A stretch of DNA of 63,477 nucleotides, from assembly GCA_018432315.1 (NCBI GenBank), contig JAHDLB010000044.1, positions 1 through 63,477 of the forward strand, written 5' to 3'. The position numbers were made by a program, and so were the translations under genes. Positions 5,369 to 19,469 of this stretch are shown one piece after another. How positions within the stretch are numbered: position 1 is the first letter of the stretch; each line of letters opens with the position of its first letter. The notes below the pieces were generated by a model. It worked only from the letters and a program-made list of their open reading frames with translations. It did not search any database and had not been told where the DNA came from. The stretch comes from Anaerolineae bacterium (GTDB taxonomy: Bacteria; Chloroflexota; Anaerolineae; Aggregatilineales; Aggregatilineaceae).

Positions 5369-5537
5369 ATCGAGCTGAGGTAATGAGCACTCGGTCTGGC
5401 AAGCTCTCGAGAATTTCCCACTGACATTCTCGACTACTTGTTGAAGCGAGTGGACAGCAGGCGGCAACTACTGCTCGGTCATCACGTTACGCGTAACGGG
5501 GGTGTTCGGTGCTGCGGCGGCGTGAGAATACCGATTG

Positions 5538-6365
5538 CTACCGCCCCTCGTCGCGCACCAGGTCCGGGTCCACTATCCACCCCTCCACAGGGTCACAATC
5601 CTTCGGTATCCCGTAGTCGGGCTGAGAGTACGCCCACGCCGCTTGCACCGCGCACAGCACCGCGTCCAGCGCATCACCGCTGGGGTCGGCGATGAAGTCG
5701 GCAGCCATCGCATCAGCCAACCCGAGGTCAAAGCCATAACGCGCCCGGCATTCCGCCCGTAGCCCGGTCACGATGGCCTGGCGTGCGTCGCGGTGAGCTA
5801 CGGTCTGTTTCTTTTTCGTATCACTCTTGTAGCCGTGCTGCGCCCACTTACGCGCCACCAGTGCGGGATACGCCTCGACCACCATCCGGCTGTCGCCGTT
5901 CATATGGCATGGTACAACTTGCGCGCCAGAGGTCAGAAGGCGCGGGGCGCCCTCGAAGAACATCTTCCCGACCGGCACGCCGTAGAGCATCATGGGACTG
6001 CACGACCTGGCGAGTTCATCGGTCCACCGGAGATGCTGCTTATCGCCGGGCGGTCGCGCATCCTTGTAGACCTTGAACATGTCTACAAACGCCTGCTTGC
6101 TCATGCCCGCCACGACGCCAACGTAGTCCTGCCACGTCTCGCCCCAACCCAGCGCCCGGACCAGCCGCGCTGGTTGGCCAAACGGGAAGTCAAGCCCGGC
6201 GACCCAGGGGCCGGGGCGGGCCAGGAAAGCCTCGAATCGGGCGAAATCAGTCAGCTCCGTGAAGTCGTGGACGTGGAGCGTGCCGTCCTCCAGGGCGCAC
6301 ACGGCGCAGGTGATAGGCTTGTGGTGGGTTGGTGCGCTGGTGAAGTCGAGGCCGAAGATGTGCAT
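5538..6365 (-). CDS. DUF429 family protein (predicted RNase H-fold nuclease)
   Basis: 275 residues. The start MHIFGLDFTSAP and internal GLDFPFGQP, together with the late GDALDAVLCAVQAAWA, match DUF429. In that family conserved Asp residues sit on an RNase H-like fold. The substrate is unknown for the family. ATG 6365 is preceded by GAGGAA. The gene stands alone on the minus strand between the PLD-helicase and the TIR-FGE gene; a copy of the 14-bp palindrome lies just past its 3' end. DUF429 genes occur on plasmids and in genomic islands, which fits here. Confidence 0.7.
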   Translation of the reverse strand: MHIFGLDFTSAPTHHKPITCAVCALEDGTLHVHDFTELTDFARFEAFLARPGPWVAGLDFPFGQPARLVRALGWGETWQDYVGVVAGMSKQAFVDMFKVYKDARPPGDKQHLRWTDELARSCSPMMLYGVPVGKMFFEGAPRLLTSGAQVVPCHMNGDSRMVVEAYPALVARKWAQHGYKSDTKKKQTVAHRDARQAIVTGLRAECRARYGFDLGLADAMAADFIADPSGDALDAVLCAVQAAWAYSQPDYGIPKDCDPVEGWIVDPDLVRDEGR

Positions 6366-6498
6366 GTGAGTTCCTCGTGGCGAGAATCGCTAGCCGCGAC
6401 CCGCCTGCGGCGAGAGACAGGGCCTGGGGGATTCGCCCAGACCCCCTTAGAGAAAAGAGCTTCAGAGTGCCAGAGGTTAGGGGGACCAGAGGCCAGAG

Positions 6499-7782
6499 TT
6501 ACTTCATAGGGGCAGAGCATACCACCCGAAAACCCCTGTCGCAGTGCCAGTTGTCTGGGTTGCCCCAGTTCCGGATGACACAGATGGCTTCGTCAGGGAA
6601 GGCGTTCCATGAACCTCCGCGCAGCACCCGCGAGGCTTCACCATCTAGTCCGATATCGCCTTCTGGCGTGTTCACGCACCATTCCCATACATTCCCGCCC
6701 ATGTCCAGCACACCATACGGCGACGCACCTTGTGGGTAGATGCCGACCGCGCTGGTCCGCTGGAGGTAATGTAGACCGGCGCGGCTTTTAACTTCATCGA
6801 CATTGGCATACCCGCTGATGTACTCGTCACCCCAGGGATATTCCCGCCCATCTGTCCCCTGCGCAGCTTTTTCCCATTGCGCCTCGGTTGGTAGGCTGAC
6901 GTGATACCCCAGTCTCGCGCTCAACCATTGGCAGAATGCCACGGCTTCATACCAGCTCACCATCTCTCGCGGGTGATTGTTGTATTTGAAATACTGCTCT
7001 GCCATTGGCTGTTTCTGGTTTTCTGGCGTCAGTTCCGCCCACCACTCATTGCGCTCGTACCCATCCGGCGCATCCAGAAATGCTTGGAATTGGATATAGG
7101 TTATTGGGTAACGAGCAATGTAGAACGTAGGTAGTGTCAACCGCTCATCGCCCGAATAAGTGAAATCACCGGCAGGAATTTCCACCCAGTCAATATCCGG
7201 CAGACCGTCCGGACGCAGCCCGACGCCGCGTCGCGGGTCGCCCAACTTGGCCAGTTTCTGCCCAGCTTCGGCGCGCTCGACGGGCGCTATCTGGGGATTG
7301 AGCATCATGTCGAGCAATCGCTGTACTTCTGGGGAGATAGATGGTTCGGGGCGCTTGGTCGGCTTCCTCTTGGATTGGGGAGTCACTCTGATGCCTTGCT
7401 CCGCTCTGAAAGGCGCAAAGGTTCCTAACCTTTTTAGGAAAGCGGAGTCAGGCAGGCTACCATCCCGGATATCTGCATACTGGGTAAGGACGAATACCGG
7501 CCAGTTGTCTCCATCCAATAGAAGGGGGAAGAATTTCTTCTCCCGTTCATCCGCCCAGGCTACTTCCCGTTGCACCCAACGGGACTCTCGTGCTTCCGGC
7601 GTCATGATTACCACGAACGCAGCACACTCGACCACAGCATGGAACATGGTTTCCAGCCAATTTTCGCCGTAGTCGATACGGTCATCTATCCAGATGTCGA
7701 ATCCATGGTCCAATAGACAATCGGCCAAGCGCCGAGCGTAATCCTTGTTCTTCTTGCTGTAGCTGATGAATACATGGGACAT
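6499..7782 (-). CDS. TIR domain-FGE/C-type-lectin-fold fusion protein
   Basis: 427 residues. Residues 1-135 are a bacterial TIR domain (MSHVFISYSKKNKDYARRL; FVVIMTPEARESRW; a Glu in WVQREVAWADE at the usual NADase position). After a helical linker comes an FGE-sulfatase domain (about 195-425; FYIARYPITYIQF, LPTEAQWEKAA, GNVWEWCVN, RGGSWN, GFRVVC). The FGE fold here probably serves as a ligand-recognition module, since the copper-binding cysteines of true formylglycine enzymes are not evident. TIR domains of this type often cleave NAD in defence. Start is ATG 7782 behind GGGGAG; a GTG immediately before is possible. A homologue lies at 28195. Confidence 0.85.
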   Translation of the reverse strand: MSHVFISYSKKNKDYARRLADCLLDHGFDIWIDDRIDYGENWLETMFHAVVECAAFVVIMTPEARESRWVQREVAWADEREKKFFPLLLDGDNWPVFVLTQYADIRDGSLPDSAFLKRLGTFAPFRAEQGIRVTPQSKRKPTKRPEPSISPEVQRLLDMMLNPQIAPVERAEAGQKLAKLGDPRRGVGLRPDGLPDIDWVEIPAGDFTYSGDERLTLPTFYIARYPITYIQFQAFLDAPDGYERNEWWAELTPENQKQPMAEQYFKYNNHPREMVSWYEAVAFCQWLSARLGYHVSLPTEAQWEKAAQGTDGREYPWGDEYISGYANVDEVKSRAGLHYLQRTSAVGIYPQGASPYGVLDMGGNVWEWCVNTPEGDIGLDGEASRVLRGGSWNAFPDEAICVIRNWGNPDNWHCDRGFRVVCSAPMK

Positions 7783-8114
7783 CACACACTCCCCGCGCAG
7801 GCCAAATCTGGACCTTCAACATCAGTATAGTTTAACACCCCCCGAGAACCAATCTGTGCACGGGCGGACCTTTCCATGCGCTCGTCTGGCCTGGACATCG
7901 TATCGATTCACCTTGACGAACAATCCTGCTGAATGCGCCTCAACCACTGAACTCGCCCTATACAAACACTCCAGGACAGGGTATAATACTATCCACCTTA
8001 TGACTCACCACCCCATTACCATCTGACTCACCCCAATCGCACCATTCCCAACCCAACACAACCCTCCCACCGGCGGCACGCACCGCCCCCGTTTGATTCC
8101 CCTCGGAGTTCCCC
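7783..8114. other. Gene-free stretch with a possible promoter
   Basis: 332 bases between the TIR-FGE gene and the HNH gene. The plus strand has a good -10 (TATAAT at 7983-7988) but no convincing -35 at the right distance; TTGACG at 7913 is too far. It may start transcription of the 8.1-12.2 kb gene set. The 150 bases before the HNH ATG are rich in CCC runs. There is no RecA N-terminal coding sequence here, although the RecA-like gene downstream lacks that part. Confidence 0.35.
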
Positions 8115-8717
8115 ATGTCCCAATCCATTCCCCTCACTCGCGGCTACACCGCGCTCGTCGACGATGCCGACTACGACCGCGTGCGCGCGGTCAAATGGCT
8201 GTACGTCGGCAGCGGCTACGCGGGCCGCTTCGTTAGGCGTAACGACACTAGGAAGCTGTTGTATCTCCACCGCTTCCTACTGAATGCCCAGCCCGGCCAG
8301 CGCGTGGACCACATCAACGGCGACCGGCTGAACAACCGCCGGGAGAACTTGCGCCTGGTCACCCCCTCCCAGAACCTGCAGAACCGCAAAGGCTCCCCGC
8401 ACACCACCAGCGGCAGGAAGGGCGTGTGCTGGCACCGGGAGCGGGCCAAGTGGCACGTCCGGATTTCGGTGAACGGCACCCGGATTCACCTGGGCTACCA
8501 CGCGGACCTGGAGACGGCGACCTTGCTCTACGATGCCGCCGCGCGGCACTTCTTCAACGGCTATGCCCGCCCCAATTACCCGAACCGTCCCACCCCGCCG
8601 GAAGTCGGCCTGCTGCTGGCGCAGATACTCTGGAAGCGCGCGGGCCGGGCATCCGGGTGCGCTGGCCACTGCGCGGCGTGCAGCGCGCACGACCACACCC
8701 ACCAGGACGGCGCGTAG
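8115..8717 (+). CDS. HNH homing-type endonuclease with AP2 DNA-binding domain
   Basis: 200 residues. The HNH_3 core reads LHRFLL...VDHINGDRLNNRRENLR (about residues 55-90). An AP2-like three-strand domain follows (GRKGVCWHRERAKWHV to about 155). This pair is typical of free-standing phage homing endonucleases. The last 40 residues are low-complexity and probably drifted. It ends one base before the start of a RecA-like ATPase that begins abruptly near its P-loop, a favourite homing target. It may therefore be an invader of that gene. No intron or intein splice signals are recognisable. Confidence 0.85.
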   Translation: MSQSIPLTRGYTALVDDADYDRVRAVKWLYVGSGYAGRFVRRNDTRKLLYLHRFLLNAQPGQRVDHINGDRLNNRRENLRLVTPSQNLQNRKGSPHTTSGRKGVCWHRERAKWHVRISVNGTRIHLGYHADLETATLLYDAAARHFFNGYARPNYPNRPTPPEVGLLLAQILWKRAGRASGCAGHCAACSAHDHTHQDGA

Positions 8718-8718
8718 G

Positions 8719-9738
8719 ATGGGCGTGGGAGCCGCTAGCTATAGCGCGTCCTACGGCAAGACCACCATCGCCCAGGTCCTGGCCGGTGCCACCATCCGGG
8801 GCCGGGTGGACCCGGCGACCGGCGAGGTCGTCCCCGGCGAAGTGATGTTCGTCGATGTGGAGGGCACCTACGACGCCCACTGGGGCGACCGGCTTGGCCT
8901 GGACTCGTCGCACCTGACCCTGTTCCAGCCCGACACGGCGGAAGAGGCCCTCGACATCGTGAGCGCCGCCGTGAAGGAGACCTACAAGGACGCCCAGGGC
9001 CGCGAGCGGGGGGTCTACGACCTGATTGTCTTCGACAGCCTGGGCGCGCTGTCCTTCGAGGCTGAGCAGGCCGGGCGCGCGGGTGACAACCACGTAGGGC
9101 TGGCCGCCCGCAAGCTGAGCACCTGGATTCGCGCCATCACCCCCGCGTTACGCGTAACGGGCACCAGCCTCGTCGGGACGAATCACGTCTCGATGCGGAT
9201 AGGCGGTCTAGGCAACCCAGAGACGATGCCGGGCGGCCTGAAAATCCAGTACGCAGCGAGCATCATCGTGGCGTTCAACGTCCCGCACCGCATCCCGAAG
9301 AACATCAACAAGCCGGTCGAGGCGATGGTGTTCCGGCTCCGCGCCAGTAAAAACAAAACATGCACGCCGCAGCTTCGCGCTGACGTGATGGTCCGCATGG
9401 ATGACTACTTCGGGCCGGACATCGTGCCGGAAATCGCCACACTGGCCCGCGCGTATGCCATCGTGACTAACAAGGACGGCCAGCCGCACAAGGGCGGGCA
9501 CATCTACTACCAGGGCGAGCCGCTGGAGTACGCCAAGAGCGGCAAGATGGCCCGCGTCGGCTCCGAGGACGCCCTGATGGACGCGCTGTACCAGGACCCG
9601 CAACTGCGGTCGCTCCTGGAGAAGGAATGCCGCCTGGCAATCGAGGCGGAGTTCGCGCGGGGTGCTGCCCGGCGTGACATCGACCTGGAACCCCAGGAAG
9701 ACGACCTGGAGATGGACCCCGCGCCGTCTCACCTCTAA
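8719..9738 (+). CDS. RecA/phage recombinase-like ATPase, N-terminus missing
   Basis: 339 residues from ATG 8719. It has a RecA core: P-loop region SYSASYGKTT (residues about 7-16), a VMFVDVEGTYD segment equal to the AxFIDAEhAlD stretch of RecA, Walker B LIVFDSLGAL, and a later GGLKIQYAAS equal to GGxALKFYAS. The usual 50-60 residues before the P-loop are absent, and the first P-loop Gly is Tyr here. The reading frame extends upstream only as a shadow of the HNH gene. An acidic C-terminus ends the protein. It is likely a phage-type strand-exchange protein, possibly inactivated or split by the neighbouring HNH gene. Confidence 0.75.
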   Translation: MGVGAASYSASYGKTTIAQVLAGATIRGRVDPATGEVVPGEVMFVDVEGTYDAHWGDRLGLDSSHLTLFQPDTAEEALDIVSAAVKETYKDAQGRERGVYDLIVFDSLGALSFEAEQAGRAGDNHVGLAARKLSTWIRAITPALRVTGTSLVGTNHVSMRIGGLGNPETMPGGLKIQYAASIIVAFNVPHRIPKNINKPVEAMVFRLRASKNKTCTPQLRADVMVRMDDYFGPDIVPEIATLARAYAIVTNKDGQPHKGGHIYYQGEPLEYAKSGKMARVGSEDALMDALYQDPQLRSLLEKECRLAIEAEFARGAARRDIDLEPQEDDLEMDPAPSHL

Positions 9739-9772
9739 CCTAATCCCTATCACGAACAAGGAGAAAAACACC

Positions 9773-10000
9773 ATGAACGAAACACACCCGTCCAGCGTCT
9801 TCGCCCCGCGTCCCTACCGGACGTTCAACCTGAACGGAGTCCGCATCTGTGCCATGGAGACGCTCGCCCCCGGCACCTTCTCCGCCTGGGTCGCCTGGCC
9901 GCAAGGGCACTACGACGTCGAGCGCTACGGTCACACGATGTTCGAGGCCATCGGCGCCGTCGTCGTGGACCTGGCCGAGGAATCCCAGGATGAGGCATGA
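9773..10000 (+). CDS. Small hypothetical protein
   Basis: 75 residues starting at ATG 9773 with AAGGAG 10 bases before it, a strong and well-placed ribosome site. The product (MNETHPSSVFAPRPY..., ending in an acidic VVDLAEESQDEA) has no motif I recognise; it looks like a small globular beta-rich protein (YRTFNLNGVRICAMET). It lies 34 bases after the RecA-like gene on the same strand, with the next gene at its 3' end, so it is part of the element's main operon. Confidence 0.65.
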   Translation: MNETHPSSVFAPRPYRTFNLNGVRICAMETLAPGTFSAWVAWPQGHYDVERYGHTMFEAIGAVVVDLAEESQDEA

Positions 10001-10001
10001 C

Positions 10002-10268
10002 ATGCCGCCCTCGCCCGCTGACCCGCGCATACGCCGGCTGACGATAGCTCTGCTACGGTTCTTCGCCGTGGCCCACAGCATGGCAGCGGTGAGTCAGGAG
10101 GGCGGAACACTGTCAGGGTACTCGCGCCGGGAGCGACGGCACACCGCCCACGGGCTGCTGGCGGCGGGGTTCCTGCGCCAGGTGCGCGGCAAGACGCGCG
10201 GGACGGTCTACGTCCTGACCCAGGACGGCCTGGCCGCTCTGCGTGCCCTGGAAGCCCTGGATGACTGA
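10002..10268 (+). CDS. Small winged-helix-like DNA-binding protein
   Basis: 88 residues from ATG 10002, which has GAGG six bases upstream; an ATG at 9990 in frame is the alternative. The pattern of RRLTIALLRFFAVAH, YSRRERRHTAHGLLAAGFL and GTVYVLTQDGLAALRAL is that of a winged helix in which the last strand pair ends in 'TxxGLAAL', as in PadR/MarR-like regulators. No partner is evident. It is followed by 272 gene-free bases containing two copies of the 14-bp palindrome (10273 and 10492), which would suit an autoregulated operator. Confidence 0.55.
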   Translation: MPPSPADPRIRRLTIALLRFFAVAHSMAAVSQEGGTLSGYSRRERRHTAHGLLAAGFLRQVRGKTRGTVYVLTQDGLAALRALEALDD

Positions 10269-10540
10269 CCCACGTTACGCGTAACGGACAACGGTCAAAT
10301 GGCACGGTGCAGGGATGACTCTCAGAGGCCCAAAATGGCCCCTTCCTGGGGCGGGAGCCAGCGGAGGACCCAACCCTCGCACAGGCAGGTTTTCGCCCGG
10401 ATTTGGCCCCGAAATGGGAGTCTCCTGAGTCACCAGCGGCGAGAGAGAAAAGACCGGGCCAAGAGATGAGCAGACAGCACCGACCAGACACCGTTACGCG
10501 TAACGGTCACCCCTAATCACTCACGAGGAGAGAACAGCAC

Positions 10541-11509
10541 ATGTCACGCACGAATCACCCCCTCACGCCGTTGGAGAAGACCCGCGAAGAGGAGCGGGCG
10601 TACCAAGCCTGGCTGGCGCGAATCAGGATATACAAACCCCCGCCTGAGCCAGGGAAATCCGACCTGATAAGCGACAACCGCAAGGTCATGGACTGGCTGA
10701 TTGCCGCTGTCGGCTGGCTGCCGCTGATTCTCGCCATCGTGGGCATCGCGGCGGCAGTTGTATCGATGGACAAAACGGCAGCCGCGTTTGAGGCGTCTGT
10801 GGCCCACAAGGACGGCCTGTGGGGCCTGTGGGCCTACACGGTCGCCCTGTGCGCGGTGGTGATGGTTGACCTGGCCCTCGTCGTCGCGGAATTTGCCCTG
10901 GTGCGCGACATGCTGCGCAAGGGCCTCAAACGGCAGGTGTGGAACCTGCGCGGCGTCTGGCGGGCCATCCGCGTCCGCCTGGGCATCGAGGACCCCCTCG
11001 ACTACCACGAGATGCCGGACAGTTCGCTCCAGTTCTACGCCAACTTCCTGAACGTCCTGGTGATTGCAGCCAACGTCTACGCCGTCACGCGTACCGGGAA
11101 CATCAACAGCCCCGGCGACATCACCTGGGAGAGCGGCCTGCTGATATTCACCGGCATCGCCGGGGCGCTGTCCCTGCGCTTCATTGGCCGCCAACTGAGT
11201 CACATCGTCTACGACCTGGCCGCCGAGAAGCGTGAGTTGCAAAAGCAGGAGATGCAGGAGAAGTGGCGACAGGACCTGATGCAGATGTGGGAGGTCGATG
11301 GACCCCGCATCGTGGCCGAGGCGCTCCACAGCCGGTATCTCCAGAAGAACAAGCTGCCAGAGGGGTCCGGGTCGCCGTACCTGCTGCTGGCCGGTGAGGA
11401 TGAGGAGGGCGAGCCTTCTGTCCAGGCGCTCCCTTTACCGACATCCTGGAAGCCATCGCCGGGGCCGTCGCCGACCGGCTCGCCCAACGGGGACCGGGAG
11501 ACGACGTGA
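10541..11509 (+). CDS. Four-helix membrane protein of unknown function
   Basis: 322 residues. Predicted membrane segments start near residues 48 (VMDWLIAAVGWLPLILAIVG), 92, 164 and 198 (SGLLIFTGIAGALSLRF), followed by a charged coiled-coil stretch (EKRELQKQEMQEKWRQDLMQ). The layout of four helices plus a cytoplasmic tail resembles Spd/DUF2637-type plasmid transfer proteins, but no diagnostic motif is visible. The start has GAGGAGAG upstream. A perfect palindrome copy sits 36 bases before the gene. Its stop overlaps the next start as GTGA. The proteins at 42832 and 44200 have a comparable layout but no clear sequence match. Confidence 0.6.
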   Translation: MSRTNHPLTPLEKTREEERAYQAWLARIRIYKPPPEPGKSDLISDNRKVMDWLIAAVGWLPLILAIVGIAAAVVSMDKTAAAFEASVAHKDGLWGLWAYTVALCAVVMVDLALVVAEFALVRDMLRKGLKRQVWNLRGVWRAIRVRLGIEDPLDYHEMPDSSLQFYANFLNVLVIAANVYAVTRTGNINSPGDITWESGLLIFTGIAGALSLRFIGRQLSHIVYDLAAEKRELQKQEMQEKWRQDLMQMWEVDGPRIVAEALHSRYLQKNKLPEGSGSPYLLLAGEDEEGEPSVQALPLPTSWKPSPGPSPTGSPNGDRETT

Positions 11510-11754
11510 CCGCCCGCCTGGACCGCATCCAGGAGCAGTTGTCCGAACTCGCCCACATGCCGCCCGCTCCCGCCGTCCCGGGTGTCCCAAACATGGGACA
11601 TCACGCCCCACGACCGAAGACCGCCGGTGAGCGGGTGCGGGCACACCTGGCCGCCCATCCCGAAGACTACACCCTCTCCGTCCGCCAACTGGCCGACAAG
11701 CTGGGCGTCGGCAAGTCAACCGTTAGCCGAGTCAAACAGGAGAACCATCCATGA
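11506..11754 (+). CDS. Small helix-turn-helix protein
   Basis: 82 residues from a GTG start that overlaps the stop of the membrane protein (GTGA), so translation is coupled. After a disordered Pro-rich middle, the C-terminal half has a clear HTH: YTLSVRQLADKLGVGKSTVS, with the 'A..LGVsksTVs' turn. Such short proteins are typical transcription regulators or replication accessory proteins of plasmids and phages. Its own stop overlaps the start of the following gene by four bases. Confidence 0.65.
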   Translation: MTARLDRIQEQLSELAHMPPAPAVPGVPNMGHHAPRPKTAGERVRAHLAAHPEDYTLSVRQLADKLGVGKSTVSRVKQENHP

Positions 11755-12248
11755 CACGAACCGAAATCTACCTCATCCAGCAGGCCGGCGGACCCCGCGT
11801 GACCTTCGGCGTGGGTCCGGATGCCCAGGCCGTCTGTGACCACCTGCAGGCGTCCAGCCCGGAACCCCTCGAATTGGTCAGCGTGGTGCGCTGCCGCAAC
11901 GTCCAGTCGGGGGTGCGCATCACCCAGATGCTGTGCGACCGCTATCGCGCGACCCACCAGGGCGGCGGCTGGCACGTCATGCCGCCTGAGATGGTGGAAG
12001 ACCTGCGCTTCTGGCTCAAGACGCTCAGCCTCGCCGCCAGCACGGCGAAGGGGCAGTTCTACGCGATGACCGGGCTGCCGCCCAAGAAGCACCCGCGCTC
12101 GCAGCTTGACAAGGCCGTTGCGTGGCTCCAGGAGCATGACCCGGACTGCACGCTGCCGTGTCGTACCGTGGCCGAGCGGGCGGGGGTGTCCTCCGGGACG
12201 GCGCACAAGGCCGCGCGGTACCTGCTGGCCCTCAAGGAGGCCGAGTAA
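11751..12248 (+). CDS. GIY-YIG-like (T5orf172-type) protein with winged helix
   Basis: 165 residues. The N-terminal 90 residues (EIYLIQQAGGPRVTFGVG, PEPLELVSVVRC, GGGWHVMPPEMVEDL) follow the T5orf172/GIY-YIG layout, but the second motif (normally YKIG) reads VTFGVG and the catalytic residues are poorly kept. It may bind DNA without cutting it. The C-terminal part (CRTVAERAGVSSGTAHKAARYL) is a helix-turn-helix. Start ATG 11751 overlaps the stop of the HTH gene. This is the last gene of the plus-strand operon before the ncRNA locus. Confidence 0.5.
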   Translation: MTRTEIYLIQQAGGPRVTFGVGPDAQAVCDHLQASSPEPLELVSVVRCRNVQSGVRITQMLCDRYRATHQGGGWHVMPPEMVEDLRFWLKTLSLAASTAKGQFYAMTGLPPKKHPRSQLDKAVAWLQEHDPDCTLPCRTVAERAGVSSGTAHKAARYLLALKEAE

Positions 12249-12299
12249 GGGGGGCTGTCCAAGAATATACTTATACTTTTTGTTTGAGCCTCTATAACC

Positions 12300-12329
12300 T
12301 TGAAGGGGCGCGGGCAAGTGGGGTATAAT
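12300..12329 (+). promoter_or_regulatory. Sigma-70-type promoter for the ncRNA candidate
   Basis: TTGAAG at 12300-12305 and a consensus TATAAT at 12324-12329 are separated by 18 bases. Transcription would start near 12336. No ORF with a ribosome site follows before the strong terminator at 12477-12508. Confidence 0.65.
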
Positions 12330-12335
12330 GAGGTT

Positions 12336-12508
12336 AGTCACTGCAATGTGATGAACCTCTCAGTCCCTCCTACGGGTTGCGTTGTTCAAGCATTCGGTGG
12401 TCTCCTACGAGGCGGCGCTGTGAAGGGTTCGCCCTCCGTGTGGCAGCACGGCATCAACAGCGGCGCCCGACCAATCCACGGTCAGCACATCCGGTGCTGG
12501 CCGTTTTT
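12336..12508 (+). ncRNA. Structured non-coding RNA candidate, about 173 nt
   Basis: A promoter and a terminator bracket a stretch with no convincing ORF but dense pairing. From the 5' side: TCAC/GTGA hairpin (12338-12351, extended by GAGGTT/AACCTC at 12330-12335/12354-12359 if transcribed); CCC/GGG around a TCCTAC loop (12365-12376); CTC/GAG around CTAC (12402-12411). Then comes a long stem of GGCGGCGCTG (12411-12420) with CAGCGGCGCC (12458-12467), which encloses two hairpins, AGGG-UUCG-CCCU (12424-12435) and CCGTG/CACGG (12436-12451). Outside it TGGTC (12398-12402) pairs with GACCA (12469-12473). It does not match a family I can name. Function is unknown; regulatory or element-specific. Confidence 0.6.
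12477..12508 (+). terminator. Rho-independent terminator
   Basis: An 11-bp stem runs from about 12478 to 12488 (core GGTCAGCAC) and pairs with 12494-12504 (core GTGCTGGCC), with loop ATCCG and a T-run at 12504-12508. It ends the ncRNA transcript. A 14-bp palindrome copy starts eight bases later. Confidence 0.85.
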
Positions 12509-12676
12509 GTTGCCCCGTTACGCGTAACGGAATGGGGGGCCCAGAAGTGAATTCTGAGAGCGTGTGTGTTGAGGGGATGGCATAACCCCGTACCCCCATT
12601 TTTTACCTTGCAGAGCCGTTTTGAGCGAAGAATTGCCCCCAAACTCTGCAAATCTCTGCAACGGGCCGGGAAGTCC

Positions 12677-13281
12677 CTACACGCCCCGGAACCCCTCTGA
12701 GGACTGCTCAGGACGGCACTTCACCCATGAGAAGGTGGGCTGCACCATCCATTCAGGCAGGGTCTCTTCCAACTCGCGCTGCAGGATTCTCCAGGCGGCC
12801 AGGAGTTCCCGGTGCTCTGGCCTGGACGGCAGCAGGCGGGCTGGCGCCTGTACTCGTATCCCATGTCATGGAGCAGTGCCTTGAGACGGCTGAGGCTGAG
12901 GGTGACCCCCGTTTCGCGGGTCATGTGGTTCCCGATAAGCCCCGCAGTCCATCCCATGTTAGAGTACCCGAGGTCCCTGGGGAGGAGGGCTGGCGTGTCT
13001 TCCAGTACCGCGCGGTAGTGGTCGTCGGCTCTGCCCGGACGGCCTGAGCGGTGCCGGTCATACAGGCCGTCGATGCCGTGCAGCTCGAAGGTGTGGGCCA
13101 CGTTGTAGACCGTCTTCCGGCTGATGCCGAGTTCCCCGGCCAGGTGGGTGGGGGTGTAGCCCGCGTGCAGGAGCCGGATGATGTGCGCCCGCCGCCGGAC
13201 CTCCGGCTGCGTGGCATGGGCGATGAGGTCGTCGAGTTCGGCTGTCTGGTCGGGTGTGAGGGTGACGGTGAGTCGGGGCAT
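12677..13281 (-). pseudogene. IS630-like transposase N-terminal HTH protein, frameshifted
   Basis: Starts at ATG 13281 behind CCAGGAG. The product (MPRLTVTLTPDQTAELDDLI...) has the double HTH of IS630/Tc1-type transposases: THLAGELGISRKTVYNVAHT, the DRHRSGRPGRA linker, and a second winged helix ending in ALLHDMGYEYR. Near 12850 a one-base frameshift breaks the gene. The other frame continues sensibly (PEHRELLAAWRILQRELEE) to a stop at 12677-12679, whereas the original frame turns into Cys/Pro-rich shadow. The DDE catalytic domain is absent, so it is a remnant, or possibly a captured HTH regulator. Confidence 0.65.
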
Positions 13282-13591
13282 GTGGTTTTCTCCTGGAGGG
13301 TATGCGGATACGGGGGGTGGGTGTAGGGAATGAGCGCGACAGGTGGCGTGCAGGGATTCCCGCGTGCCTATGGAAGAGGAGAGGGGTGGGGTGCCTGGAA
13401 GTGGGATGCCCGCCGCCCGAGAGACCTGAACTACCGTTACGCATAACGGTGATATGGCCGCTTTCCTCGCCATACAGAGTTGGAGGGCAGGCGGCGGTGA
13501 GGGTAGGGGGCGAGGTATTGGGATTTCCACAAGACAGTGTGCGGATGTGGGGAACGAGTACGGAAGATAGCCCAGAGGGGAGAATGCACGC
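13282..13591. other. Gene-free stretch
   Basis: 310 bases between the transposase remnant and the small gene at 13592. It holds a variant palindrome (13435-13448, one base different from the family). I see no supported gene, RNA or terminator. Confidence 0.5.
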
Positions 13592-13936
13592 CTAAGCCAG
13601 AAGAGAGACCGCCTTAAGATACAATGCCCGTCGGCTGAGGACCCCCGGCATGGCCACGTTACGCGTAACGGAGACCACGTGACTCTGTTTGCTGCGCAGG
13701 GCGGGGTCCTGGTCGCCGGTGAGCACGTAGAAGATGCGCAGGAACCGGGCCTCGATGGTCTCCCCACCGTTCTTCTCGCGGGGCAGGGTGGCCGGGTCCA
13801 GGATGAACTCGCCCATTTGCTTGACGGCGTTCTCCGCGCCAATCATGGTCCCGTACATGGACCAGAGGCGCTTGAACTGGTCTTCGCCGAACTCGGCACG
13901 GATGAGCGGTTTTGGTCTGTTTGCTCTCGGTGTCAT
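13592..13936 (-). CDS. Hypothetical protein of the replication operon
   Basis: 114 residues, starting at ATG 13936 (MTPRANRPKPLIRAEFGEDQ) behind AAAGGGGAG. It is predicted to be mostly helical, with a middle part (FKRLWSMYGTMIGAENAVKQMGEFI) and a basic C-terminus. I do not recognise the family. A perfect 14-bp palindrome copy is inside its 3' part at 13657. It lies 14 bases after the winged-helix replication gene on the same strand and is probably the last gene of that operon. Confidence 0.55.
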   Translation of the reverse strand: MTPRANRPKPLIRAEFGEDQFKRLWSMYGTMIGAENAVKQMGEFILDPATLPREKNGGETIEARFLRIFYVLTGDQDPALRSKQSHVVSVTRNVAMPGVLSRRALYLKAVSLLA

Positions 13937-13950
13937 GTGGTCTCCCCTTT

Positions 13951-15033
13951 CTAGCGAATGTCGAAGTTAGAGTCGTCCCAACGCGGGTCGTTGGGGTTGG
14001 ACAGAGCCTCGGTCCCCTTCTTCTTTTTCCTTCCCGGCTTCCCGTTACGCGTCCCGGCAGGGTCGGACTTGTAGTCGGCCCAGAAGTCCCAAGCCCCGCG
14101 CAGCATAACGGCCACGCGCTTCTTGGAACTGCCGTTCCGTTCAAACCAGGGCACGAACTTCTCTTCCAGCCAGGCCCGGAAGAGGTCCACTTCCTCGAAC
14201 ATGTCCTCGGCGCTGCGGGTGGTGATGCTGTCGTTGCTGCTGCGCATCGGGTCCAGCAGGGCTTCCACCATCTCGGCGGACCAGGAGCGTATGCCGAACT
14301 GCGCGGACAGGTAGCGTTGCAGGTCGGTGTCGCCCACCGGCTCGGAGTCCTTCGGCTTTTCATCTTCCGGGCTGTTCTTTCCTGGGCGGGGAATGCGCCT
14401 GCCCTGGTTCGGGTCATAGGACCCTGGAAGAGAAGAAGGAGCAGCAGGGGGCGCGCCAGCGCCCTTACTACTCTCTGTTGTCTTCTCTGTAGTAGTCTCT
14501 GGTATTGCTGTGCCATTTTCGGCACATTGATTGTGCTGACTTGAACCGATTAATGTGCCATTTTCGTCACATGGAGATGCCGATTCTGGCACATGCATCC
14601 GGCACTTCTGCCACGCGGCGAGCGCGTGGCTGGTTTCCTGGATATTCAGGTGAAACTGGAGCGTGCGGTCCCACCCATACTTCGGGTTGTTCCGCGTGTA
14701 GAGAAAGCGGCGCTCGACCAGCCACTCCCGGTTCTCGCGCATCTTCATCTTCCCGAAGAGGCCGAGCGTTTCAGCCATCAGGTCTTCGGCAGTCTTGTAG
14801 ACCCACAGGCTCGTGTCCTGAGAAGGTTCCTCGCCGTGCTTCACGGCAATCGCGTTCTCGATTTCCGCCTGGCTGCGGTGGGCCAGCTTGACGCGCGTCC
14901 AATACTCGAACACGCACAGGATGGCCCCCGCGCATTTCGGGTCCGGGGCATCCTCACAGATGCCAACCATGTCCTCAGAGAAGCGCACGAAGTACGCCTT
15001 GTCGTGGTTGAAGAGTTCAGGCAGTTCGCTCAT
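13951..15033 (-). CDS. Phage/plasmid replication-type winged-helix protein
   Basis: 360 residues. Residues about 30-140 follow the winged-helix plan of phage replisome organisers and plasmid initiators: AILCVFEYWTRVKLAH, an ordered WVYKTAEDLMAETLGLF, recognition helix REWLVERRFLYTRNN, and wing GWDRTLQFHLN. A fast-evolving polar linker follows, with two near repeats (DENGTLIG / AENGTAIP). The C-terminal domain (about 265-345) has SAEMVEALLDPM and KRVAVMLRGAWDFWADY. It probably binds the element's origin and loads a helicase. ATG 15033 overlaps the upstream stop as ATGA. Confidence 0.6.
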   Translation of the reverse strand: MSELPELFNHDKAYFVRFSEDMVGICEDAPDPKCAGAILCVFEYWTRVKLAHRSQAEIENAIAVKHGEEPSQDTSLWVYKTAEDLMAETLGLFGKMKMRENREWLVERRFLYTRNNPKYGWDRTLQFHLNIQETSHALAAWQKCRMHVPESASPCDENGTLIGSSQHNQCAENGTAIPETTTEKTTESSKGAGAPPAAPSSLPGSYDPNQGRRIPRPGKNSPEDEKPKDSEPVGDTDLQRYLSAQFGIRSWSAEMVEALLDPMRSSNDSITTRSAEDMFEEVDLFRAWLEEKFVPWFERNGSSKKRVAVMLRGAWDFWADYKSDPAGTRNGKPGRKKKKGTEALSNPNDPRWDDSNFDIR

Positions 15034-15401
15034 TGACGGCCTCGCTTCCCGACGCTCCGGCGCTCGTCTTCGATATGCGTGGCGAACATGTTGATGTCAT
15101 GGTGGTTGACACCCGGGCGTTTCGGCCACAGCGTAGGACCTACGCTGGTTTCGATTACGGCAAAGTGCGTTGGACCACACTGCCCGAAAAGCTCCACACT
15201 CAAGTGGCACGCGGCATCGAGCACGGCGCGGACATCAAGCCCGAGCTCCTCAGCGATGGTGTCTGGTGTTGGCTCGGCCCCACGCTCTTCGTGCTCCTCG
15301 ATGCACAGCAAGACCGCTGCGTGCACGAGTCTCATGATGCTGAGATAGCGTACCGGAATCCGGTTGTTGTCCCTCAGGTCCTCGAATTTCTCGATGTTCA
15401 T
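15030..15401 (-). CDS. Small winged-helix regulator-like protein
   Basis: 123 residues from ATG 15401 (MNIEKFEDLRDNNRIPVRYL), placed behind AGAGGAG; the longer upstream frame lacks a ribosome site. The middle TPDTIAEELGLDVRAVLDAA is an HTH. It is the first gene of a three-gene minus-strand operon with the replication protein and the hypothetical 13592. It could regulate or assist replication. The family is not recognised. Confidence 0.6.
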   Translation of the reverse strand: MNIEKFEDLRDNNRIPVRYLSIMRLVHAAVLLCIEEHEERGAEPTPDTIAEELGLDVRAVLDAACHLSVELFGQCGPTHFAVIETSVGPTLWPKRPGVNHHDINMFATHIEDERRSVGKRGRQ

Positions 15402-15529
15402 GGGGTGGTTCTCCTCTCTAGTCCTGCTCTTCGCGGATGATATTTCTCTGGTGACAGCCTGAGACGTCCCGGTCTGCGCCGCACGTGGCGGCCCTGTGCG
15501 TCTACACACTCACGGCACGGTCGCGACTG

Positions 15530-15640
15530 CTACCAGCGACCGCCTTCGATACTCACGGGGGTGTATCGCCCTGCGCGTCTGAAGGCACTCGAACACAGCG
15601 TGGTGCTGGGCGAGTGTTGTGTGACTGCATCAAGCTTCAT
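15530..15640 (-). CDS. Very small ORF of a leader pair
   Basis: 36 codons from ATG 15640, overlapping the stop of the 19-codon ORF upstream by four bases (ATGA). The product begins MKLDAVTQHSPSTTL. Only the overlap argues for translation. Confidence 0.25.
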   Translation of the reverse strand: MKLDAVTQHSPSTTLCSSAFRRAGRYTPVSIEGGRW

Positions 15641-15696
15641 GCAGCCTGCAATAGCCGATGTCTGCGCTCTGAAACGGGAGTGGGTTGGTCGTTCAT
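15637..15696 (-). CDS. 19-codon leader ORF with strong ribosome site
   Basis: ATG 15696 is seven bases behind AGGAGG. The peptide is MNDQPTPVSERRHRLLQAA. It lies in the leader between the operator-like promoter at 15.9 kb and the operon at 15401. It could be a leader peptide or an excisionase-sized remnant; no family is recognised. Confidence 0.3.
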   Translation of the reverse strand: MNDQPTPVSERRHRLLQAA

Positions 15697-15860
15697 GGTC
15701 TGGCCTCCTAGTGTCTGGCGGGTGTGCCTGCCATGGCAGTGGCGTGTACCCTAATCGGCGCAATCGAACTCAACGGTTTGGGTTGGCGATAGCGATGTGC
15801 TTGTCCTCCAGGGTGTCCTGAGGGGTGGGTTAGAGTGTCCGGTCGCCCCATTTTCATATA

Positions 15861-15918
15861 GAAAGCAAGCTGCTTGCTTTCATGTTCACAAGTGTATCAC
15901 ATAATTATTATCCGTCAA
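15861..15918 (-). promoter_or_regulatory. Promoter with adjacent 21-base operator-like palindrome
   Basis: Minus-strand TTGACG (15918-15913), a 16-base spacer and TACACT (15896-15891) form a promoter. Just downstream of the expected start lies GAAAGCAAGC-T-GCTTGCTTTC (15861-15881), ten-base perfect arms around one base, the shape of a repressor operator. It would control the replication operon. Confidence 0.5.
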
Positions 15919-15955
15919 GGGTGAATTCGGACGTATTTTCAAGTCGCCCGGGAGT

Positions 15956-16939
15956 TCAATATGACGGCTTCCTTGACGGCGGGATACGCGTAACGTCGAC
16001 GGCGGGCCCAAGGTAATCCCGCACCCCATTTAGGTTCTTGAGACCCAGGTTGGCGGCAATAGCGACCAGACTTAGCCCCGACTCATACAACTGGCGCGCG
16101 TAGGCCCGGCGCATGTCCATCGGGCGGATGACGACCGACGTGCCCAGGATGGCAATCGGATATGACGCCAGGATGTTGTCCAGCGCTTGGGGCGTCAGCC
16201 TTGTCGGTCGGACCTTTTTGCCGCTCTTGTAGAAGCCCCGAAACACCGGACCCTCCCATATCTTGGCCTTCTCAAGCCAGGTATTCACGTAATCCAGCCC
16301 CCAACGCAGGCCACCGTAGGGTATCACCCGTTCGGTGCATCCCCGTCCTGGCGGTACATGCAGAGCCGGTTTGCCCTCATAGAGGTAGTACAGGTCAGGC
16401 ACGTTCAACATGCACAGCTCGTTCGCCCGAATGCCTGTCGTGGCCAGCAGGGCAAGCATGGCTGTATCGCGTTTCCCTACCAGCGTATCCGTGCCCGGAC
16501 GTTTGAGAAGCTGCTGGACATGTTCCTGGGTAAGTTGCAGATGCCTGATATCCGGCGGTGTGACATCGACGCGGCTGGCCGCCGGATTGATGGCCTGGTC
16601 TATCTCGTTCAGATGCCAGCCAATCTCCGATTCGCGCTCCTGCGCGGTCGAGTCTTTGGGCATTGCCTTCTCAAGAGCCGCTCGCAGAGTGCCGTCTTCC
16701 AGCAGCACCCGGTAGCGGGCGCGAATAGTGGACAGGTGCACATTCACAGTTGACGGCGCTAGCTTGCGCTCTTTCAACAGGTGGTCCCGATAGGCATCCA
16801 GGTCGGGTTGGTAGAACCTGCGCCCCGTCGTTGTGAGCCAGTCGGCGAAACCGCCAACCCGATGGTCGTGGTCTTTTTGGGCCTGCCGGTCGTCTGACGG
16901 GGGAGCGACCAGCAAGTCGCGATTGATGTCCCGATTCAT
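15956..16939 (-). CDS. Tyrosine recombinase/integrase, atypical active site
   Basis: 327 residues from ATG 16939 (MNRDINRDLLVAPP), which has GGAGAAGG just upstream; an ATG 27 bases earlier lacks one. The N-terminal SAM-like arm (LAPSTVNVHLSTIRARYRVL) is followed by a catalytic domain with Arg I in LLATTGIRANELCML, Lys in the strand VPPGRGCTERVIPYGG, Arg II in RPMDMRRAYARQLYESG, and Tyr near DYLGP. The usual HxxR histidine is Met, and the second His (LGH) is Leu in NLGLKNLN. It may still cut, since these His positions vary in some members, or it may be degenerate. Confidence 0.75.
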   Translation of the reverse strand: MNRDINRDLLVAPPSDDRQAQKDHDHRVGGFADWLTTTGRRFYQPDLDAYRDHLLKERKLAPSTVNVHLSTIRARYRVLLEDGTLRAALEKAMPKDSTAQERESEIGWHLNEIDQAINPAASRVDVTPPDIRHLQLTQEHVQQLLKRPGTDTLVGKRDTAMLALLATTGIRANELCMLNVPDLYYLYEGKPALHVPPGRGCTERVIPYGGLRWGLDYVNTWLEKAKIWEGPVFRGFYKSGKKVRPTRLTPQALDNILASYPIAILGTSVVIRPMDMRRAYARQLYESGLSLVAIAANLGLKNLNGVRDYLGPAVDVTRIPPSRKPSY

Positions 16940-16960
16940 GGCCTTCTCCGAAATAGACTC

Positions 16961-16988
16961 TTGCATTTATATAAAGCTATGCTATAAT
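16961..16988 (+). promoter_or_regulatory. Promoter of the serine-recombinase cassette
   Basis: TTGCAT (16961-16966), 16 bases, TATAAT (16983-16988). It overlaps the 5' end of the divergent tyrosine recombinase gene. The leader has a GGCGCTT/AAGCGCC stem (17000-17006 with 17024-17030) before the first ORF at 17159. Confidence 0.55.
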
Positions 16989-17158
16989 GATAGTACATTG
17001 GCGCTTGGACGTCAAGAGCCAAAAAGCGCCGAGGGCGTGCGGGAACACGACCTCGGCAGTGGCTTCAACAATCTCCAGCTCCAAACTGTATCCGATTGGT
17101 CAGCCGACTCCATTGTAGTGGGCCTGGGCTGACCCTGCAACCCATGGAGGACGAATCC

Positions 17159-17353
17159 ATGACTCTCACTCCCAGCCCAACAAACTCCGAAACACAGCAA
17201 GACCGCCCCCGCCATCGCACCCTCTCCGAGTCAGCCCCTGCCACGAACGACGCCGTCGTGGACGCGCTTTGCCACATTCTAGCGCGGATTATCCTGCGCG
17301 TGAATGCGGACGGGCAAGTGCCGGCTGCCGAAGGCCCCGGAGGTGCTCAGTGA
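17159..17353 (+). CDS. Small ORF upstream of serine recombinase, LARII motif
   Basis: 64 residues from ATG 17159 behind GGAGG. The N-terminus is Thr/Ser/Pro-rich; a hydrophobic helix follows (VVDALCHILARIILRVN). The unrelated-looking small ORF before the second serine recombinase (24751) carries the same LARII.R pattern in the same place. Its stop overlaps the GTG start of the next ORF. A role as accessory or directionality factor is an inference from position only. Confidence 0.55.
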   Translation: MTLTPSPTNSETQQDRPRHRTLSESAPATNDAVVDALCHILARIILRVNADGQVPAAEGPGGAQ

Positions 17354-17691
17354 GCGGCAAACGGGGGGCGGCATACGTGCGTGCAGCGACCTGGGAATCT
17401 GCGCAGGAAAAACTGGCAGAACAGGAACAGAATATCCGCGAGTGGGCTGACCTCAACGGCTTCGACGTGGTGGAGGTGTACGCCGACCTCGGTCCAGGCA
17501 ATGGCGAGGCTCGACCGGGACTCCAGCGCCTCTTGGAAGACGCGCGGGCAGGACTGTATGAGGCCGTCATCGTCGTGGACATGGCCCGCCTGTTCCGCAC
17601 CCTGGCGCTGCTGATACAGCACCTGGAGATGATGTGCCAGCAGCTTGCCGTCGATGTGATTGCGACCGACCAGGACGGCGGTGACGCATGA
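17350..17691 (+). CDS. Serine-recombinase resolvase domain lacking catalytic Ser
   Basis: 113 residues, GTG start overlapping the previous stop. The whole protein is a resolvase N-terminal domain: GAAYVRAATWES, QEQNIREWADLNGFDVVEVY, an ARPGLQRLLEDARAG loop, VDMARLFRTLALL, ending after the QLAVDVIATDQ strand. In active relatives the first strand reads YxRVS; here the Ser position is Ala (residue 13). No recombinase or zinc domain follows. Its stop overlaps the start of the full-length recombinase at 17688 (ATGA), so the two are co-translated. It probably dimerises with or regulates the active enzyme. Confidence 0.75.
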   Translation: MSGKRGAAYVRAATWESAQEKLAEQEQNIREWADLNGFDVVEVYADLGPGNGEARPGLQRLLEDARAGLYEAVIVVDMARLFRTLALLIQHLEMMCQQLAVDVIATDQDGGDA

Positions 17692-19139
17692 CGGCCAAAA
17701 AACGAGCGGCAGCGTACATTCGGGTTTCCAGCGAAGACCAGGGGGATGGCTGGAGTCTGGACGGCCAGGAGAAGCAAATCCGGGAGTATGCCGAGCGGCA
17801 GGGCTACGAGATTGTCCAGGTCTACCAGGATGAGACGTCCGGGAGCAAGGACAAGTGGCCTGGCTTCGAGCGGATGCTGATGGATGCCCACGCATCGCTG
17901 TTCGAGGCCATCATTGTGCTGCACACGTCGCGGTTCTTCCGGAATGTAGCGTTAGCGCGGCGCTACAAGGACCTGTTCCGCAACACGCTCAACATCGAGG
18001 TGGTGTTCGTCAACCAGCCGGTGGGCGACCCGTCGGACCCTTCATCGTTCATGCTGGAAGGCATCAACGAGCTGTTCGACGAGTACTACCTCTATCAGCT
18101 GCGGTTCTGGACCACGCTCGGCAAACAGACGCGGGCGCAGAAGGGGCTGTACAACGGCACGCTGCCATTCGGGTATCAGGTGGACGAGGATGGCGTGCCC
18201 GAGCCACACCCCGTGAACGCCGACGGCGTCGTGACGGCGTTCACAGCGTACTCGACGGGCCGGTACTCGGACGTGCAAATCGCCGACCTTCTCAACCGGG
18301 ACGGCTACCGGACGACGGGCAACTGGGGCGAGCGACCGTTCACCAAGGACACCATCACGCCGCTGCTGCAGAACGTCTTCTATCTGGGCTACGTGAAGTA
18401 CAAGGGCGAGGTCCTGCCTGGTCTGCACCCGCCGCTCATCGAGCAGGAGCTGTTCGATAAGTGCCAGGAGGTGCGAGCCGGACGGCGGCGACAGTCTCGG
18501 TCGATGGGCCAGACGCGCAAGGTGTACGTGCTGTCGGGTATTGTGCGCTGCCACAGATGCGGGCTGACGCTGCGGGCGTATGCCACTCAGAGCAAAGGCC
18601 AGCACCGGTACATGCGCCACACCGCCGAATGGCGTGGGGTGGAATGCGAGGTGCCGACCATCTCCCTGCGCGCAGACTTCCTTGAAGACCTGTGGGGCGA
18701 GATTGTCTCGCGGATTGTGCTGCCGTCCGACTGGAAGCAGCGGATTGAGGCCTTGGCGGGCGACGCCGACGAGCGTGAGGCTATTCTCCGGGAGCGAGAG
18801 GCGATTCAGGAGAGGCTGCGCCGTCTGAAGCGGGCGTACGTGGACGGTCTGGTCGATGATGCCGAATACGACGCCACCCGTCCCATGCTCCAATCCCGGT
18901 TGGCAGGGTTGGTGCTGCCCAGCAGCCCGCATCTCGTCAAGGCGGGTGAGTACCTGGAGAGCCTGGGCACGCTGTGGGAGGTGGCGACTCTGGCCGAACA
19001 GCGGGAAATCACGCGGATGCTGCTCAAGGCGATGTACGTGAGCCTGCAGCAGCAGCGCATCGTCTCGATTGAGCCGCAGCCGGTCTTCCGCGTGCTGTTC
19101 ACGACCATCTGTGGCGACCTGGGCGTGGAGATTGTGTGA
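17688..19139 (+). CDS. Large serine recombinase (integrase)
   Basis: 483 residues. The resolvase domain has catalytic Ser14 (AAAYIRVSSEDQ) and the RFFRN arginine; the recombinase domain (about 160-265) has GTLPFGYQVDEDG and GNWGERPFTKDTI. A zinc-ribbon part contains CHRCG (about 288), followed by the coiled coil (EREAIQERLRRLKRAYVDGL) and a C-terminal strand pair. It is a bit short compared with phage integrases. It forms an overlapping cassette with the small ORF and the Ser-less paralogue, and is followed by a terminator. It probably integrates the 8-19 kb element; I could not identify its att sites. Confidence 0.9.
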   Translation: MTAKKRAAAYIRVSSEDQGDGWSLDGQEKQIREYAERQGYEIVQVYQDETSGSKDKWPGFERMLMDAHASLFEAIIVLHTSRFFRNVALARRYKDLFRNTLNIEVVFVNQPVGDPSDPSSFMLEGINELFDEYYLYQLRFWTTLGKQTRAQKGLYNGTLPFGYQVDEDGVPEPHPVNADGVVTAFTAYSTGRYSDVQIADLLNRDGYRTTGNWGERPFTKDTITPLLQNVFYLGYVKYKGEVLPGLHPPLIEQELFDKCQEVRAGRRRQSRSMGQTRKVYVLSGIVRCHRCGLTLRAYATQSKGQHRYMRHTAEWRGVECEVPTISLRADFLEDLWGEIVSRIVLPSDWKQRIEALAGDADEREAILREREAIQERLRRLKRAYVDGLVDDAEYDATRPMLQSRLAGLVLPSSPHLVKAGEYLESLGTLWEVATLAEQREITRMLLKAMYVSLQQQRIVSIEPQPVFRVLFTTICGDLGVEIV

Positions 19140-19173
19140 CACAGCGCCGATAGGGTAGGTGGCACAATGTGAG

Positions 19174-19197
19174 CGCCGGGGGAGACCCCGGCGTTTT
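19174..19197 (+). terminator. Rho-independent terminator of the recombinase cassette
   Basis: CGCCGGGG (19174-19181), loop GAGA, CCCCGGCG (19186-19193), then TTTT. It is 35 bases past the recombinase stop. Confidence 0.85.
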
Positions 19198-19469
19198 CTG
19201 TGGATGCGTGAATCACGTTACGCGTAACGTCCGCGCCCCGCGTGTTGAGAGCCGGAGACGGTACTTGAGCCAATGGGGTCCGAAGTGAACACGGGGAGGC
19301 TTTAGGTACGGTGCTCAACCCTCCTGGAATCCATGCAAACGAGTTAACGGTCACGCTGAACGTCGATAGACCTGGCGACATGAGTTGCGTCGGAAGACAG
19401 GACGACAGAGGGCGCATAGTGTGTCCGTGGCACGAATTCGTCGCAATACCACAAGCCAACTACCCAACG
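19198..19469. other. Gene-free junction region with palindrome copy
   Basis: Between the terminator and the convergent SIR2 gene. It holds the last perfect copy of the 14-bp palindrome (19216-19229). I see no gene. This is a plausible right edge of the 8-19 kb element. Confidence 0.4.

Follow-up and report, generated by a model that had tools for sequence, protein, structure and literature searches.

Some trans-acting small RNAs (sRNAs) cover Shine-Dalgarno sites by means of C/U-rich unpaired stretches. The replication of plasmids is also subject to control by antisense RNAs, which include RNAII of pMV158 (PMC4485353) and asRNA1 of pSYSA, the latter being antisense to the transcript preceding a primase-helicase gene (PMC9978351). 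Integrated elements may likewise encode small RNAs: processing of a longer transcript between mpsA and oriT yields sgm-sRNA of SGI1 from its 3' end, and transfer depends on this RNA (PMC9299015).

The DNA analysed here, termed 'the window', is an entire contig of 63,477 bases lacking a terminal overlap, from a genome that is the single representative of its genus among those compared. It harbours an element with the following genes surrounding a predicted small non-coding RNA at 12336-12511:

Start 8115, + strand: HNH nuclease gene (HNH_3; an AP2 match falls below the cut-off)
Start 8533, + strand: gene for a RecA/UvsX-like protein
Start 10541, + strand: gene for a membrane-type protein, its membrane nature judged by eye
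11506-11754, + strand: small helix-turn-helix gene upstream of the RNA (HTH_23, 24.8 bits against a cut-off of 24.6)
11751-12248, + strand: 165-aa gene directly upstream of the RNA, no family match
12721-13281, - strand: helix-turn-helix stretch (Pfam HTH_29, 32 and 33), which we take to be part of an IS630-type transposase
13592-13936, - strand: 114-aa gene, the next one behind the DnaD-like gene in the same orientation, no family match
13951-15033, - strand: DnaD-like helicase loader of replication type (phrog_6493, E 2.3e-6; no Pfam match)
15956-16966, - strand: tyrosine integrase

An earlier note, made from the letters of this DNA, had placed an RNA gene between two opposed gene sets, and this is the arrangement found: + strand genes end at 12248, and - strand genes begin at 12721, those of replication type from 13592. 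The predicted RNA gene is free-standing between these convergent sets, the next + strand gene taken as real in the list of open reading frames being at 17096. The GIY-YIG neighbours suggested in the same note did not materialise, as no such match is listed among the 10 proteins scanned and the nuclease is of the HNH_3 type.

Several defence-type genes are found near the element, encoding an HsdM-like methylase (827-2434, - strand), a PLD and helicase protein (2582-5368, + strand), a TIR and FGE-sulfatase protein (6499-7785, - strand) and a SIR2, nSTAND and TPR protein (19470-22538, - strand). A tRNA-Gly called by ARAGORN at 10925-11012 (- strand), opposite the CDS of the membrane-type protein, is probably false.

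Promoter, terminator and fold of the predicted RNA

The signals and structures predicted at the locus are as follows:

12300-12329, + strand: sigma-70-type promoter, TTGAAG-18-TATAAT, with 10/12 consensus matches
12330-12359, either strand: inverted repeat across the expected start site, with 10/12 arm positions matching
12336-12511, + strand: predicted small non-coding RNA, its start placed from the -10 box
12336-12403, + strand: domain 1, a long interrupted stem with apical loop UCCUAC at 12368-12373 (z -2.96, 2/300 shuffles as low)
12404-12407, + strand: unpaired junction CCUA between domains 1 and 2 (unpaired probability at least 0.97), inside the second copy of CTCCTACG
12408-12469, + strand: domain 2, a stem around two hairpins, one with a UUCG loop (z -2.44, 3/300 shuffles as low)
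12478-12511, + strand: intrinsic terminator, an 11-pair stem (12478-12504) followed by TTTTT

The consensus promoter, the textbook terminator and the long stem enclosing two hairpins that the earlier note described are thus all present, the last as domain 2 of the predicted fold. The promoter is the sole match of its kind in 11400-13500, whereas a loose scan for terminators, taken by itself, found one against 1.4 expected. A strict scan for cassettes, defined as a terminator stem of at least 9 pairs with a promoter of at least 10/12 located 60-300 nt upstream, returned 12300-12511 as the single instance on both strands of the 63-kb window, and returned none in 40 of 40 shuffled windows. These thresholds were chosen after the RNA was known, so the result flatters the RNA. 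The same scan was also applied, as an unplanned control, to a 19-kb sister element in the same genome, where it picked out two cassettes: a tRNA-Ala gene, which ARAGORN calls independently, and a predicted antisense RNA. The inverted repeat at 12330-12359, equalled in 0.8% of 1000 shuffled versions of that 80-bp stretch, may be an operator or, if transcription begins upstream, a 5' hairpin.

The 176 nt from 12336 fold with a predicted energy of -77.2 kcal/mol (z -4.16), a value that none of 200 shuffles reached, in agreement with the approximately 173 bases of dense self-pairing claimed for the region. In this fold, stems take up most of the RNA and leave only short stretches unpaired. The minus strand of the same region gives a z of -1.27, such that the strong fold, as modelled, is specific to the transcribed strand.

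When the terminator is removed, the body of the RNA has a z of -2.48, with 3/300 shuffles as low, a drop that fits a reading in which there is no RNA gene: a promoter-like site and the terminator of the upstream gene set would flank a stable GC-rich stretch by chance, only the terminator behind 11506-12248 being real. The post hoc thresholds of the cassette scan also favour this reading, as does the distribution of fold strength along the window. In a scan of 288 tiles of 176 nt on the + strand, with 40 shuffles each, 4 tiles reached a z of -4.16, and the tile 12321-12496, which contains most of the RNA and cuts the terminator, fell outside the 12 lowest scores. Nevertheless, a chance pairing of signals is fairly unlikely, as a 10/12 promoter, of which 0.2 would be expected in these 2.1 kb, lies at the right distance from the sole strong terminator, domains 1 and 2 each fold better than nearly all of their shuffles, and the fold is absent from the other strand.

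Two further features of the RNA were considered and set aside. The first is the motif CTCCTACG, which the earlier note had described as shared by two repeated loops. The repeat exists and its first copy, at 12367, does lie in the apical loop of domain 1, but the second, at 12402, spans the junction of domains 1 and 2, with CCUA alone unpaired. A repeated 8-mer occurs in 18.7-19.2% of 2000 shuffles (two runs), which is chance level, and the motif was consequently rejected as evidence. The second is an ATG-started open frame of 58 aa (12351-12527), which crosses both the RNA and the terminator. The claim that no ORF with a ribosome site is present therefore stands as regards the ribosome site, none being visible by eye, but not if taken to mean that a frame is lacking. 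The frame has no Pfam, PHROG or phage match, and an open stretch of this length is found in 71% of 2000 shuffles; on these grounds, namely the absent ribosome site, the absent relatives and the common length, its interpretation as a small protein or an mRNA leader was rejected.

Because promoter, strand-specific fold and terminator coincide, a stand-alone RNA gene, as originally proposed, is the likeliest reading of the locus, and we infer that the RNA is transcribed. Judged from these predictions, a real RNA gene of whatever role, whether regulatory or with some other job, is probable.

Relatives of the RNA and of the element's proteins

None of the 4227 Rfam 15 families is matched at its gathering cut-off anywhere in the window, which bears out the earlier failure to name a family for this RNA; at E values up to 10, three matches were found in 12240-12620, the best scoring 14 bits against a cut-off of 83. 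No match to the RNA was found by blastn in plasmids and phages, and its own genome contains one full copy. By BLAST, 7 of 18 genomes in the family had matches at E <= 0.1, those of the six non-self genomes being stretches of 18-28 bases, and matches were found in 2 of 154 genomes of the order and 5 of 400 in a sample of the phylum, own genome included in both; in a sample of the class, the sole match among 396 genomes was its own. The class and phylum sets are samples, and the sets searched may omit records close to the source genome. All the non-self BLAST matches in the order and phylum (L036, L123-L126) lie inside open reading frames and were discarded.

A covariance model (R1), built from the single RNA sequence, matched 3 of 154 genomes in the order at E <= 0.1, own included, and over 22 loci gave E < 0.5 for L120 and L121 only. 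Both of these were rejected: L121 lies within an open reading frame, and L120 combines the tail of a 70-aa frame with a terminator. Pattern scans fared similarly. In IMG/VR, 23 stretches were judged unrelated by eye after folding, and 2 further viral stretches, as well as 5 stretches from the genome contigs of 84,980 species, lay in open frames or unrelated repeats and were judged unrelated. By the searches made of Rfam, plasmids, phages and the family, order, class and phylum, the RNA is an orphan at the level of sequence, a status that held in every search. That conservation was not found in the genomes searched is also to be expected if there is no RNA gene at 12336-12511.

The proteins encoded around the RNA are similarly isolated, with no relatives of them found among genome contigs or viral contigs in general searches. 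The protein of 13951-15033 has one weak phage match, of 28.9% identity over 38%. The integrase has relatives in many genomes of the order, 53 of 154 reaching E <= 1e-30 with its own counted, and 40 stretches around such relatives contained no other gene of the element except in L101, where serine-recombinase, HNH and IS630-like matches lie nearby, and L106, where a serine recombinase does. Relatives of the membrane-type protein are present in 4 of 154 genomes of the order and 2 of 396 of the class, own included each time; neither this gene order nor the RNA accompanies any of them, except that the sister element has the gene order. One such relative, of 35% identity, was seen in a phage-like stretch from another family of the class (L127/L128, G361:C7), the gene functions of which were judged by eye.

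The sister element and dispersed palindromes

The sister element (L043, G000:C26:35000-54000) follows the gene order of the window for HNH, RecA, membrane-type protein and integrase, at 32-49% identity. It also has a large primase-helicase-type gene (D5_N, DUF5906, Toprim_2), on the same strand and side as the DnaD-like gene in the window. A copy of the window RNA was found in it neither by BLAST nor by an unfiltered covariance search (best E 0.53). A fixed association of the RNA with nuclease and helix-turn-helix genes is therefore unsupported, since the sister element keeps genes of these types in the same order with no detectable copy of the RNA. The two have at best an 11-mer, GGTCTCCTACG, in common, which a 500-base search picked out at E 0.047 in the matching intergenic region of the sister element; it is a lead only.

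A different RNA is predicted in the sister element at 7115-6951 (- strand), with a promoter of 11/12, a z of -5.6 and a terminator stem of 13 pairs, or 15 if one mismatch is allowed. It is antisense to the first codons of the primase-helicase-type gene and is, according to these predictions, a candidate copy-control antisense RNA. The tRNA-Ala (cgc) gene at 1366-1438 (+ strand), followed after approximately 35 nt by a strong terminator, sits at the edge of this element and is perhaps the site of integration.

Directly after the terminator of the window RNA lies one copy of a dispersed palindrome:

12515-12530, either strand: palindrome CCGTTACGCGTAACGG

The form CGTTACGCRTAACG occurs in 8 copies (at 5485, 9146, 10273, 10492, 12516, 13435, 13657 and 19216) over 5485-19229, a span of 13.7 kb, both in and between genes. 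With up to 3 mismatches, the 16-mer palindrome has 11 matches in the window against 0.21 expected, and 7 of the genome's 11 exact copies of CGTTACGCGTAACG are found there. The sister element has a different palindrome, with a GGAACGTTCC core, present in 9 copies over about 4240-16464; its 16-mer has 7 matches with up to 3 mismatches, against 0.10 expected. The arrangement is the same in both elements, some copies lying inside coding sequence, and the letters differ.

Some mycobacteriophages have stoperators, and plasmids have dispersed operators. The palindromes of the two elements resemble these, each element having its own version, and the copies of CGTTACGCRTAACG have the look of dispersed operators or partition sites. 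As they appear to be element-specific repressor or partition sites, the palindromes may be the more general lead.

Such sites raise the question of whether the stretch at 12336-12511 acts as DNA, forming part of an origin or segregation site of the element in which inverted repeats and palindromes are the functional units. The intergenic region between the convergent sets has palindrome copies in both elements, and GC skew, slightly negative before, rises to +0.115 at 12-14 kb. By contrast, a DNA-level site would not call for a promoter and a terminator on either side of a structure whose folding is strand-specific, and the skew, which is near zero again at 14-16 kb, may just follow gene orientation; this explanation is improbable. 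A long shot would be to unite RNA and repressor, such that the RNA controls replication or incompatibility in an integrative element of a kind not described before, characterised by two convergent gene sets, a non-coding hub between them containing the RNA gene, and an element-specific palindrome scattered throughout. Each element having a private RNA and a private palindrome would then explain why neither is conserved in sequence.

Possible roles and comparison with known RNAs

One way in which a stand-alone RNA could act is by base pairing with the element's own opposed, replication-type gene set, for which the relevant stretches are:

12394-12406, + strand: RNA stretch able to pair with a ribosome site and start codon (13 pairs, -20.2 kcal/mol)
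13933-13946, - strand: candidate target by pairing prediction, the ribosome site and start codon of the 114-aa gene at 13592-13936

RNA polymerase would start near 12336 from the strong promoter, possibly under the control of a repressor that binds the inverted repeat spanning the start site, and transcription would stop at 12504-12511 to give an RNA of about 173 nt, consisting of two stem-loop domains and the terminator. The stretch at the domain junction, 12394-12406, would then pair with the mRNA of the 114-aa gene and hide its ribosome site and start codon. The predicted duplex with GGGAGACCACAUGA, which comprises these two signals, has 10 pairs in a row, one bulge and 3 more pairs. In a sliding-window test against the 13592-13936 gene alone, 1% of 300 shuffled RNAs paired as well; across all 13 gene starts, 51% of shuffles reached the best energy, which is not significant. 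Opening the stretch costs 8.3 kcal/mol, and an earlier trial with 18 gene starts and three pieces of the RNA gave a best z of -2.99.

The predicted antisense RNA of the sister element was counted in favour of an RNA regulating its element. By contrast, the position of the window RNA away from the start of the replication gene, and its absence from the sister element, were counted against a regulatory role. As a whole mechanism, predicted as it is from models, regulation of the opposed gene set by pairing is the favoured reading, put forward tentatively, and the pairing itself, the choice of 13592-13936 as target and a role in copy number or maintenance are speculative.

The short unpaired stretches also fit a real small RNA with another job, which has no nearby mRNA target and instead binds a protein of the element, titrates a regulator, or serves transfer or replication. 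The evidence of promoter, fold and terminator fits such an RNA just as well, and there is precedent in the sgm-sRNA of SGI1, said to act unlike classical regulatory sRNAs (PMC9299015). However, the scan of neighbouring proteins yielded no match to known RNA-binding families, and an RNA of this sort is on the unlikely side.

If the RNA is expressed, a mobile element from a lineage with few sampled genomes would carry an RNA that belongs to no known family; taken together with the RNA predicted in the sister element, this would point to RNA control of such elements. Taken alone, it does not change what is known about small RNAs.

Regulation by pairing, the mechanism set out above, would bring the window RNA close to the sRNAs that cover Shine-Dalgarno sites, as its UCCUAC loop and UCUCCU junction could, in the predicted fold, pair with Shine-Dalgarno sequences, although its predicted pairing falls short of significance across the 13 gene starts. 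What the window RNA shares with RNAII of pMV158 and asRNA1 of pSYSA is that it is short, is encoded by an element and has a promoter and a terminator to itself, here by prediction only, and that it possibly hides the ribosome site of a replication set (PMC4485353, PMC9978351). RNAII and asRNA1 are encoded opposite their targets, whereas the window RNA (12336-12511, + strand) does not overlap the DnaD-like gene (13951-15033, - strand), lying approximately 2.5 kb from its start, and so lacks the defining position of copy-control antisense RNAs, opposite the leader or start of a replication gene. Of the two elements, only the sister has an RNA predicted at such a place, and this RNA recalls asRNA1 in that both are antisense near a primase-helicase gene (PMC9978351). 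Similarly, sgm-sRNA resembles the window RNA as a small RNA that belongs to an integrated element and is encoded apart from the proteins that it serves, but it is processed from a longer transcript, whereas the window RNA is a predicted short primary transcript, the two being compared here by description (PMC9299015). By the searches made, the predicted RNA is an orphan in sequence and, as small RNAs carried by plasmids and islands are known, it is ordinary in kind (PMC4485353, PMC9299015).
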